Below are positions 35,865 to 61,329 of a DNA stretch of 64,000 nt, piece by piece. A program made the translations under genes and the position numbers. Every line of letters starts with the position of its first letter. Position 1 is the stretch's first letter. The notes below the pieces were generated by a model. The model did not search any database. It was not told the DNA's origin and saw only the letters and a program-made list of their open reading frames with translations. The stretch covers positions 41,695,594 through 41,759,593 of the forward strand of contig NC_084789.1 of NCBI RefSeq assembly GCF_028858725.1. The letters run 5' to 3'. Source of the stretch: Colius striatus. Taxonomy: Eukaryota > Chordata > Aves > Coliiformes > Coliidae.

Positions 35865-35995
35865 AGAGGTTTGACGCCAAAGATGGGCAAATAACTTCAG
35901 GTTCTCACCTCTCGGTGCCTCCCCAGTGCCCCGCAGTCCCGGGGCTGCTCCCGGGCTCCAGCCCAAAGCCGCCGGCAGCTGAAGCCCCGCGGGTT

Positions 35996-38900
35996 TCAAT
36001 CAGGTCCGTCCGCCCGTTGCAGCCGCAGGCGGCAGCCGCCGCAGTCCCCAACAAGGTCCGACCGCGCCGACACCCGCCCCCCCACTCCTGCCCCCCCACC
36101 GGCCCAAGCTCCGGCCGCCGCTCCCCGGCCGGGGGGCTTCAACCCGAGCCCCCTCCCGCCGCTCCCCGCCCGGCTCCCGCTGCGGGGCTCCGGCAGCTCC
36201 GGCGCCGCCACAACACCCGGCACAGCCCGGGGCTCACACCGGCACCGACCCCGCTCCTCGCCCTGCCCTCAGCCGCTCCCACCAGCCGACACCGACAGCT
36301 CCCAGCGCCCGGGCTCACACGCAGCCCTGGCGCCTCGCACTCACTTCTGCCCTTCCCCTCACACCGGGGCGTTACGAGAAGCTCTGCCCACACCAATCCC
36401 CCGCCCACACCATGGACCCACCTCTGGCACCAGCCCCCGGCAGCTCTCAGCCTCCAGAGCCCCGGCAGCAGCCCCCCGCAGGCACACAGCAGAGCCGCTC
36501 ATTGCCGCCAGCTCTGCTGCACGAAAGCCTGGAGAAACCCGCGGGAGATGAGGGCTTCAAATCACTGCTGGCTTATCGGGGTCAGGAGCTGCAGTCCCCC
36601 TCTGCTCAGGGCTTCGTGTTCCCCAGCCGGCTGTTCAGGTAACAGACAGACCCCAACTGTAACGTGTGTGTTGAGCCTCAGAGCCGCACCAAGGGCATGT
36701 GCTGTGGACCTGGTGGAATCACAGCCCGGCGCGGCTTCGCCAATCACGAGGCAGCAAAGGGGCTGAACAGCACCAATCAGAGCTGGGCAAACCCAGACTG
36801 TGCAGCCAAGGGGCTGGAAGGGCCCAGCACAGCGGCACCCACAGGAGCTGCTGCAGCTGCACAAGGGCAGCAGCGATGGACACGGGCTGCCCGCTGCTCG
36901 CTTTTCAGATCAGTCCCCACCCTCTGTAGCTGTTTGCATCAACTGCTGTGGGCAGCACAAAGTTGGAGGGAACGAGACGTTCCACGTGTGACAGACCCGA
37001 TGGCTCATGTCAGAGAGAACAGGGAGTAGGTCTGGCAGCGATTGTAGAGCCTCTGAGCAGCTCAGCTAAAGAGTCCAGGGTCTGATGAGGGGTTCAAGTC
37101 CCCATTTGGTTATTTGGGTGAGGGGGTTGAGTCCCTGGTTGTGTGGAAATGAACCCCACAGCAGCATTTCCCCCAGCATGGAAGGGAACGTGGACTTTAG
37201 GAACAAGAGTCCCTGACATGGCAATAACGGACCAGCTGCAGCAGAAACTGAGCCCCTGGCAGACGAGTGGAACTCGCAGTCAAAAAGCCGTTTGTGATGT
37301 GCTCACGGCAAGGGCTGTTTCTGTGCTGCCCTGGGCAATGGTTCCCTGTGGCACTCGTTGTGCTCACAGAGGTTTGACGCCAAAGATGGGCAAATAACTT
37401 CGGGTTCTCACCTCTCGGTGCCTCCCCAGTGCCCCCCAGTCCCGGGGCTGCTCCGGGGCTGCAGCCCAAAGCCGCCGGCAGCTGAAGCCCCGCGGGTTTC
37501 AATCAGGTCCGTCCGCCCGTTGCAGCCGCAGGCGGCAGCCGCCGCAGTCCCCAACAAGGTCCGACCGCGCCGACACCCGCCCCCCCACTCCTGCCCCCCC
37601 ACCGGCCCAAGCTCCGGCCGCCGCTCCCCGCCCGGGGGGCTTCACCCCGAGCCCCCTCCCGCCGCTCCCCGCCCGGCTCCCGCTGCGGGGCTCCAGCAGC
37701 TCCGGCACAGCCCGGGGCTCACACCGGCACCGACCCCGCTCCTCGCCCTGCCCTCAGCCGCTCCCACCAGCCGACACCGACTGCTCAGCGCCCGGGCTCA
37801 CACGCAGCCCTGGCGCCTCGCACTCACTTCTGCCCTTCCCCTCACACCGGGGCGTTACGAGAAGCTCTGCCCACACCAATCCCCCGCCCACACCATGAAC
37901 CCACCTCTGGCACCAGCCCCCGGCAGCTCTCAGCCTCCAGAGCCCCGGCAGCAGCCCCCCGCAGGCACACAGCAGAGCCGCTCATTGCCGCCAGCTCTGC
38001 TGCACGAAAGCCTGGAGAAACCCGCGGGAGATGAGGGCTTCAAATCACTGCTGGGTTATCGGGGTCAGGAGCTGCAGTCCCCCTCTGCTCAGGGCTTCGT
38101 GTTCCCCAGCCGGCTGTTCAGGTAACAGACAGACCCCAACTGTAACGTGTGTGTTGAGCCTCAGAGCCGCACCAAGGGCATGTGCTGTGGACCTGGTGGA
38201 ATCACAGCCCGGCGCGGCTTCGCCAATCACGAGGCAGCAAAGGGGCTGAACAGCACCAATCAGAGCTGGGCAAACCCAGACTGTGCAGCCAAGGGGCTGG
38301 AAGGGCCCAGCACAGCGGCACCCACAGGAGCTGCTGCAGCTGCACAAGGGCAGCAGCGATGGACACGGGCTGCCCGCTGCTCGCTTTTCAGATCAGTCCC
38401 CACCCTCTGTAGCTGTAGTCAAAAAGCTGTTTGTGATGTGCTCACGGCAAAGGCTGTTTCTGTGCTGCCCTGGGCAATGGTTCCCTGTGGCACTCGTTGT
38501 GCTCACAGAGGTTTGACGCCAAAGATGGGCAAATAACTTCAGGTTCTCACCTCTCGGTGCCTCCCCGGGTCCCCCTGTCCCGGGGCTGCTCCCGGGCTCC
38601 AGCCCAAAGCCGCCGGCAGCTGAAGCGCCCGCGGGTTTCAATCAGGTCCGTCCGCCCGTTGCAGCCGCAGGCGGCAGCCGCCGCAGTCCCCAACAAGGTC
38701 CGACCGCGCCGACACCCGCCCCCCCACTCCTGCCCCCCCACCGGCCCAAGCTCCGGCCGCCGCTCCCCGGCCGGGGGGCTTCACCCCGAGCCCTCTCCCG
38801 CCGCTCCCCGCCCGGCTCCCGCTGCGGGGCTCCAGCAGCTCCGGCGCCACCACAACACCCGGCACAGCCCGGGGCTCACACCGGCACCGACCCCGCTCCT

Positions 38901-59800: not shown

Positions 59801-61046
59801 CCCAAAGCCGCCGGCAGCTGAAGCCCCGCGGGTTTCAATCAGGTCCGTCCGCCCGTTGCAGCCGCAGGCGGCAGCCGCCGCAGTCCCCAACAAGGTCCGA
59901 CCGCGCCGACACCCGCCCCCCCACTCCTGCCCCCCCACCGGCCCAAGCTCCGGCCGCCGCTCCCCGCCCGGGGGGCTTCACCCCGAGCCCCCTCCCGCCG
60001 CTCCCCGCCCGGCTCCCGCTGCGGGGCTCCAGCAGCTCCGGCGCCACCACAACACCCGGCACAGCCCGGGGCTCACACCGGCACCGACCCCGCTCCTCGC
60101 CCTGCCCTCAGCCGCTCCCACCAGCCGACACCGACTGCTCAGCGCCCGGGCTCACACGCAGCCCCGGCGCCTCGCACTCACTTCTGCCCTTCCCCTCACA
60201 CCGGGGCGTTACGAGAAGCTCTGCCCACACCAATCCCCCGCCCACACCATGAACCCACCTCTGGCACCAGAAAGGACGGCCCATGGTAGAGCGAGCAGGG
60301 TGGATTGGGAATGTGACCCTCGCATTAGCTCACATAAATAACCCGGTTTGGGTGAGGGCTTACAATCTTGGTTGGGTTATTTGGGTGAGAGGTTTAAGCC
60401 CCCCCTTTGGTCAGGGGTTTCTGTTCCCCTGCTGGTTATTAAAGTAAGAGATAATAAACTGTTCTAACTTACTACATTAAACACCCGTTTTTATTTCCTG
60501 GAGACTTGCCCAAAAGCAGCTTTTCTGGCCTCAGCCATTTGTGTCCTCTTCAGAGCTTCCAGCTCTTACTCCCCTGTCCTTTTCACAGCAGAGGGATTGG
60601 GCTCTGTTTAAGAAAAGTAATACTTTCTTCCTAGCTGCTACTGCGAGAGGCTCAGACCTCGTCGGGGCAGAGACCCAGAGCCTTGGTGCTGCTCCGGGCT
60701 GCAGCTCAGTGGGCACATGGACACAGGGAACGGTGAGGAACTGCCCAGGCTCAGCCTCCCTCCTGTGCTGGGGGAACACGTGGGGCTGCCATGGGACACA
60801 GCAATGGGGCAGCACCACAGAGTGAGCTGAGGTTCCCCGCAGCAGCAGAATCACAAAGTCCTGGGTCCCTGTAACCCAGCAATTTGGAGACGGCACAAAC
60901 CCACAGCAGATGCCCCCCGGGAGCCAAACAAAATCCTCCTGGGGCAGCTTTCAGACACCTCTCGTTGCCTCCCCAGTGCCCCCCAGTCCCGGGGCTGCTG
61001 CCGGGCTCCAGCCCAAAGCCGCCGGCAGCTGAAGCCCTCGCGGGTT
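56830..61046. repeat. Variant higher-order repeat copy 7 (L-L-II, 4,217 bp)
   Basis: Core anchors at 56830, 58331 and 59835. Two full-length L units replace the L-S pair, so the 364-bp block absent from S units is present twice. Confidence 0.88.
60438..60495. terminator. Bidirectional poly(A) module in type II units
   Basis: ATTAAA at 60438-60443 and AATAAA at 60453-60458 lie on the + strand, and AATAAA on the minus strand at 60490-60495 (TTTATT). A U-rich stretch flanks each. The same module occurs in all seven II units (for example + AATAAA at 39256-39261). The minus-strand signal is about 790 nt past the read-through stop of the MLCK-like gene, so it is the nearest plausible 3' end for that transcript. 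Confidence 0.5.
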
Positions 61047-61329
61047 TCAATTAGGTCCGTCCGCCCGTTGCAGCCGCAGGCGGCAGCCGCCGCAGTCCCC
61101 AACAAGGTCCGACCGCGCCGACACCCGCCCCCCCACTCCTGCCCCCCCACCGGCCCAAGCTCCGGCCGCCGCTCCCCGGCCGGGGGGCTTCAACCCGAGC
61201 CCCCTCCCGCCGCTCCCCGCCCGGCTCCCGCTGCGGGGCTCCAGCAGCTCCGGCGCCGCCACAACACCCGGCACAGCCCGGGGCTCACACCGGCACCGAC
61301 CCCGCTCCTCGCCCTGCCCTCAGCCGCTC
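61047..61329. repeat. Truncated terminal core of the macrosatellite
   Basis: The 20th core carries private changes (TTAGGTCCG for TCAGGTCCG, CCCTCGCGGG for CCCCGCGGG). It stops at CAGCCGCTC, 2 bp into the intron after the MLCK-like exon whose donor would be at 61331/61330. Confidence 0.88.

Follow-up and report, generated by a model that had tools for sequence, protein, structure and literature searches.

The mammalian repeats DXZ4 and D4Z4 consist of kilobase-sized, CpG-rich tandem units whose copy number is variable. In chicken, the MHM repeat has a unit of 2.2 kb and is located near DMRT1. A 41-bp subtelomeric repeat, PO41, has been described from Galliformes (PMC4301066, as excerpted). 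For the mouse, the portion of the source used here (PMC11039559) describes mo-2 as a minisatellite of the pseudoautosomal region (PAR) with a unit of 31 bp, which is also present on some autosomal ends, varies in copy number, accumulates meiotic break factors and serves crossing-over.

The window analysed here is a stretch of 64,000 nucleotides (C39:41695594-41759593) in an avian genome assembly of 1.21 Gb. It contains an array of repeats located between two genes, which can be classed as a macrosatellite: its tandem units are longer than 1 kb and its copy number differs between chromosomes (20 versus 10 cores in the assembly of one individual). The features of the window are listed in Table 1.

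Table 1. Features of the window, with positions counted from its first nucleotide
Feature	Position	Strand	Remarks
29-bp minisatellite	11745..14768	.	108.9 copies; Z haplotype 86.9
FMNL1-like formin gene	17500..32565 (limits approximate)	minus	Left flank; open frames
44-bp minisatellite	23515..24207	.	15.8 copies; Z haplotype 22.8
Whole array	35865..61329	.	20 cores; LSII, LSII, LSII, L-II, LSII, L-II, L, L-II, partial core
First core, CpG island	35906..36433	minus	528 bp (consensus 527)
II-type tail, example	39074..39762	.	689 bp; AATAAA readable on both strands
Example 3,856-bp L-S-II triplet, units 4-6	39763..43618	.	
Last partial core	60956..61329	minus	374 bp; end at most 2 bp from donor-like GTGAGC by kinase exon
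MLCK-like (myosin-light-chain-kinase-like) Ca/calmodulin-type kinase gene	61330..63780 (limits approximate)	minus	Right flank; exons from open frames

Organisation of the array and signals in its core

As assembled, the GC-rich cores of the array comprise nineteen full copies and one partial copy, which start at 20 places (35906, 37409 and so on to 60956). They belong to units of three types, namely L (1501-1504 bp, n=8), S (1139 bp, n=4) and II (1193-1215 bp, n=7). The tail of the L unit is 975 bp long, and S units are without 344 bp of it; in the haplotype of the window, presumed to be that of the W chromosome (see below), they are additionally without 19 bp of the core. The tail of the II unit is usually 689 bp long and is largely unrelated to that of L. 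Pairwise differences number 0-28 per ~1500 bp among L copies, 0-2 per 1139 bp among S copies and 0-21 per ~1200 bp among II copies, with the core sequence diverging by 2-5% between unit types. Comparison of the array with the remainder of the window gave no match at 1e-10. A preliminary description of the window had given the same edges, coordinates and L/S/II anatomy, and had the L-S-II triplet recurring four times at exactly 3,856 bp; this is correct for three of the four triplets, the first measuring 3857 bp. The L and II tails also share one element of 50-110 bp, present as three diverged copies that are 67-73% alike (L consensus 630-740 and 1141-1229; II consensus 571-707).

The core consensus (527 bp) has a G+C content of 75.3% and a CpG o/e of 0.82, and qualifies as a CpG island (length of at least 500 bp, GC >55%, CpG o/e >0.65). 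CpG o/e is 0.42 in the L tail and 0.30 in the II tail, so that the CpG richness which led the array to be described beforehand as a CpG-rich, large-unit macrosatellite between two genes, a description that we can endorse, sits in the core. The minus strand of the core is rich in G (skew 0.34), and ten overlapping G-quadruplex motif starts were identified on it; none was found on the plus strand of the core or in the tails. Both ends of the core resemble splice donors on the minus strand. When one mismatch is allowed, this strand of the array has donor-like GAGAGGTGAGAACC at 13 places and CAGAGGTGGGTTCA at 19, and a weaker GAGAGGTGTCTG closes seven cores. The minus orientation assigned to the core was deduced from this skew and these ends.

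Each core could be a CpG-island promoter with a first exon and splice donor, directed leftwards and giving rise to a non-coding RNA or to alternative starts of the FMNL1-like gene. The island character, skew and donor-like ends of the core speak for such a promoter array, as does its direction, which is that of both flanking genes. However, the weaker donor-like end of seven cores, the presence of a CpG-rich start of the FMNL1-like gene itself near 32.5 kb and the variability of the core, which is no lower than that of the tail among L copies (16/527 variable columns versus 27/~975, by our own count), lead us to consider this possibility rather unlikely. At the right edge of the array (window 61319-61353), a donor-like GTGAGC following the last kinase exon read lies at most 2 bp away, and consequently a kinase transcript may run into the array.

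Open reading frames of up to 382 aa are present on the plus strand of the array, as would be seen in a tandem family of protein-coding genes. Frames of this kind are, however, expected at 65-75% GC, and no Pfam domain was identified in the three plus-strand array frames scanned. Furthermore, five pairwise alignments among members of the dispersed family related to the array show no codon signal: substitutions are spread evenly over first, second and third codon positions, and 16 of the 102 gaps have a length divisible by three. The protein-coding reading was rejected on these grounds and is extremely improbable.

A boundary element, or a silencing element sensitive to repeat length in the manner of DXZ4 or D4Z4, would agree with a CpG-rich macrosatellite that differs in copy number, and a likeness to these two repeats had been implied in the preliminary description. 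A scan with a CTCF matrix identified no CTCF-like site in the L+S+II consensus, where the best score, 6.7 bits, was equalled or exceeded in 299 of 300 shuffles; the window has nine CTCF-like sites of at least 9 bits, all of them outside the array. Together with the absence of a Pfam domain from the three plus-strand frames, this speaks against the implied likeness and makes a boundary or silencing role very improbable. CTCF-like sequence is scarcer in the L+S+II consensus than in its shuffles, for which the mean best score is 12.4 bits. Searches of the window for tRNA genes and against Rfam gave no match, and an exact pattern of 36 bases from the core had 0 matches among viral contigs.

Regarding the flanks, the gene on the left was named for its N-terminal sequence, which we take to be that of FMNL1; one of its exons has a Pfam FH2 match (2e-05) that falls short of the curated cut-off. 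The 44-bp minisatellite is probably located in an intron of this formin gene. The 29-bp minisatellite shows strong strand asymmetry. An inverted pair (29086-29291 and 33678-33880), 86% identical, is probably a dispersed repeat.

Pseudoautosomal location and the second haplotype

The distance between the window and the end of scaffold C39 (42.3 Mb) is 0.55 Mb. On scaffold C40 (89.0 Mb), three DM-domain matches were identified within 105 kb (at 52.4 Mb), two others being located on C12; the DMRT1-3-2 cluster is a marker of the avian Z chromosome. Matches to Spin-Ssty number five in all, three on C39 and two on C40, and such a split over two scaffolds is expected of a W/Z gametologue pair. On account of the DM-domain cluster and the distribution of Spin-Ssty, C39 is presumed to be W and C40 to be Z, an identity that rests on these marker genes.

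Sequence at the end of C39 recurs in reverse orientation at the start of C40, with an overall identity of 98-99.95%. Identity is 99% at C39:41.0 Mb, 98% at C39:41.62 Mb, ~99.5% around the array and 99.95% over 8 kb at C39:41.83 Mb. Between Z and W, 20 kb of the left flank of the array, with the 44-bp minisatellite included, shows 98 mismatches (0.49%), and 2.6 kb of the right flank shows 7. A 2-kb sample taken 0.3 Mb from the other tip of Z had no close W partner: its top-scoring match on C39 was 80% identical over 375 bp, and one 168-bp match on C39 reached 86%, in sequence that has matches on many other chromosomes as well. On this sequence evidence, namely the near-identity of the C39 end and the C40 start and the lack of a close W partner at the other Z tip, the array is assigned to the PAR. 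In a pseudoautosomal stretch, the assignment of haplotypes to chromosomes can be switched in assembly.

In the Z haplotype, of which 60 kb was read in six pieces, the array is located at C40:0.56 Mb and contains 10 cores in the order S-II-L-S-II-S-II-L-II-partial, with L-S-II occurring once. Its left and right edges are those of the window array, one base differing at the left junction. The S units of Z do not possess the 19-bp core deletion of their W counterparts; this deletion is also found in one II unit of each haplotype. Both other large tandem repeats of the window (29 bp and 44 bp) likewise vary in length between the haplotypes. As the Z array has 10 cores in another order and a single L-S-II, the repeated 3,856-bp triplet is taken to be an expansion on one haplotype. 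The neighbouring triplets of units 4-6 and 7-9 differ at 2 of 3,856 sites, about a tenth of the difference between Z and W in the left flank, from which the expansion would be young; the very recent amplification proposed beforehand is thus upheld by near-identical copies.

An assembly expansion of one or two units had been considered in the preliminary description. Adjacent triplets are nearly identical and hard to separate with reads <25 kb, and the copy number of the W scaffold could have been inflated by misassembly. Against such an artefact, the array assembled on the other scaffold shares its edges but has 10 cores, a different order and different variants, and the unit types are 2-5% apart in the core. 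Misassembly is accordingly improbable as an explanation of the array, the exact number of W copies being unproven.

Dispersed relatives and mutation pattern

A search with a 2-kb query gave 57 listed matches, among which the array itself is absent, and these were grouped into 25 loci (20-kb gap), the C39 and C40 loci forming one allelic pair. Seventeen loci are located at most 1 Mb from a contig end; the minus strand of the query faces the end in 15 of them, faces away in one and is mixed in one. Among the eight farther loci, five face the end and three face away. The array itself points away from the end. Several loci share up to ~5 kb at ~80% identity with each other. Among the matches listed, identity does not exceed 86% outside C39 and C40, and values of >90% occur only on the Z and W scaffolds. 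The possibility, raised at the outset, of a known dispersed satellite with no locus specificity is thus borne out in one half, diverged relatives being found at many chromosome ends, and contradicted in the other by the confinement of the close matches listed to Z and W. By similarity, the array is related to a subtelomeric repeat family. The II tail appears to be nearly specific to the Z/W arrays, in which 11 of its 13 listed matches are located; the remaining two, of 66 bp each, are on C7. There (loci L029 and L030, C7:58.73-58.75 Mb), at a distance of 0.4 Mb from the end, a local array made up of relatives has a step of 2.36 kb at 99% identity, and an inverted copy is 99.6% identical over 3 kb.

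A TERRA-like promoter would agree with the orientation shared by 15 of the 17 loci close to a contig end (1 Mb at most); it was set aside as the main reading, since the array points the other way and is 0.55 Mb from its end. On C12, retroviral fragments (reverse transcriptase and dUTPase; L039 423-3848) adjoin a family member. An origin from a retroviral LTR was rejected, as only these two frames of L039 reach a Pfam cut-off (10 frames from six loci), and the adjacency is treated as due to chance.

A single diverged member of the family, in the usual family orientation, lies 72-74 kb from the array (C40:487k / C39:41.83 Mb). Within it, a block of 264 bp (L027 7207-7470 / L028) differs from the nearest core at 3 of 264 bases (99% identity), and the next homologous stretch beyond the block is 83% identical. 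In this comparison 19 of 30 cores were usable (3-6 differences), 11 being dropped as out of register by indels. So abrupt a block of near-identity inside a diverged element suggests a trace of gene conversion; alternatively, the array may have been seeded from this element.

CpG transitions are in excess in the core, when both haplotypes are considered (8/118 columns versus 10/408; odds ratio 2.9, p 0.04), and in the L/S tail (8/88 versus 9/887; odds ratio 9.8), the figures for the II tail not being significant (1/34 versus 7/655; odds ratio 2.8). This pattern fits germ-line methylation that is lower in the core than in the L/S tail, the difference in excess between the two not being significant (z ~1.7, our own estimate). 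Since the excess is seen in the core too, the core may itself be methylated to some extent in the germ line. Changes in the core from majority to minority base include 15 from G/C to A/T and 8 in the opposite direction; they bear no sign of GC-biased conversion among the present copies, and make it less likely that strong biased conversion is now at work. The G+C content of the array exceeds that of 11 of the 13 loci compared, the other two being the haplotypes of the element at C39:41.83 Mb. GC-biased conversion was rejected as the source of this content, as changes within the array do not favour G+C and CpG decay in the relatives explains it equally well.

Putative origin and comparison with known systems

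The reading that we favour, with moderate confidence, is that of a non-coding CpG-island macrosatellite of the avian PAR in which unequal exchange and gene conversion have raised the copy number, shuffled the units and kept them alike. The observations behind it are the terminal position shared by Z and W, the same edges around 20 and 10 cores, the near-identical triplets, the conversion-like tract and the relatives at chromosome ends. The high meiotic recombination of the PAR would be the engine of change. Birds are without PRDM9, and their recombination is more frequent at CpG islands and promoters, as stated in the excerpted source (PMC10781513). In the germ line, the cores may be CpG islands that are open and carry little methylation and, as such, sites prone to breaks in a PRDM9-free bird; a cluster of them in a hot PAR would meet many breaks, which could lead to unequal exchange and conversion, and the array would have no coding product.

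In the flycatcher, the excerpted data give a rate of 102.1 cM/Mb for the PAR in females, along with a repeat content of 0.063 versus 0.113 on the rest of Z (PMC4272252); high recombination alone thus does not always breed repeats. An origin through recombination in the PAR is also countered by the fact that such arrays can arise without meiosis, by the relatives on C7, where the same family forms a local array on an autosome, and by the excess of CpG transitions in the core and the lack of a sign of GC-biased conversion. In the crested ibis, an ancient PAR and a new one, formed after chromosome fusion, have been described (PMC10891136, as excerpted).

By analogy with mo-2, the array could even be a cis-acting element of the PAR, in which 10 to 20 CpG islands would concentrate meiotic breaks and help to secure the obligatory Z-W crossover of females; it would then be the counterpart of mo-2 in PRDM9-free birds, and the relatives at autosomal ends would be places of the same activity. 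We regard this as speculative and quite unlikely. The PAR of birds is a small region in which recombination has to occur during female meiosis, and the array, with its unequal sizes on the two homologues and its relatives at other chromosome ends, offers a concrete sequence on which the causes of this high recombination can be tested. Even as a mere by-product, it would illustrate the speed at which pseudoautosomal sequence is remodelled, and either way it may show how the small recombining region of Z and W evolves.

No published match to the array repeat was recognised in searches of the open-licence PubMed Central literature. Like PO41 as excerpted, the array belongs among avian subtelomeric tandem repeats, the unit of PO41 being 41 bp. 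It resembles chicken MHM in being a tandem kilobase repeat of an avian sex chromosome; MHM is Z-specific and next to DMRT1, whereas the array is on both Z and W, with the DM-domain cluster ~52 Mb away. Kilobase CpG-rich tandem units of variable copy number are shared with DXZ4 and D4Z4. The array differs from both in being pseudoautosomal and in a unit without a CTCF-like site. D4Z4 possesses an intact homeobox ORF in each unit; here, the scan of three plus-strand frames against Pfam gave no hit. Compared with mo-2 as described in the excerpt, the unit is 1.1-1.5 kb with a CpG island rather than 31 bp, and the autosomal relatives have diverged (at most 86% identical among the matches listed). 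The two nevertheless have in common an array in the PAR, relatives at some autosomal ends and a copy number that varies.
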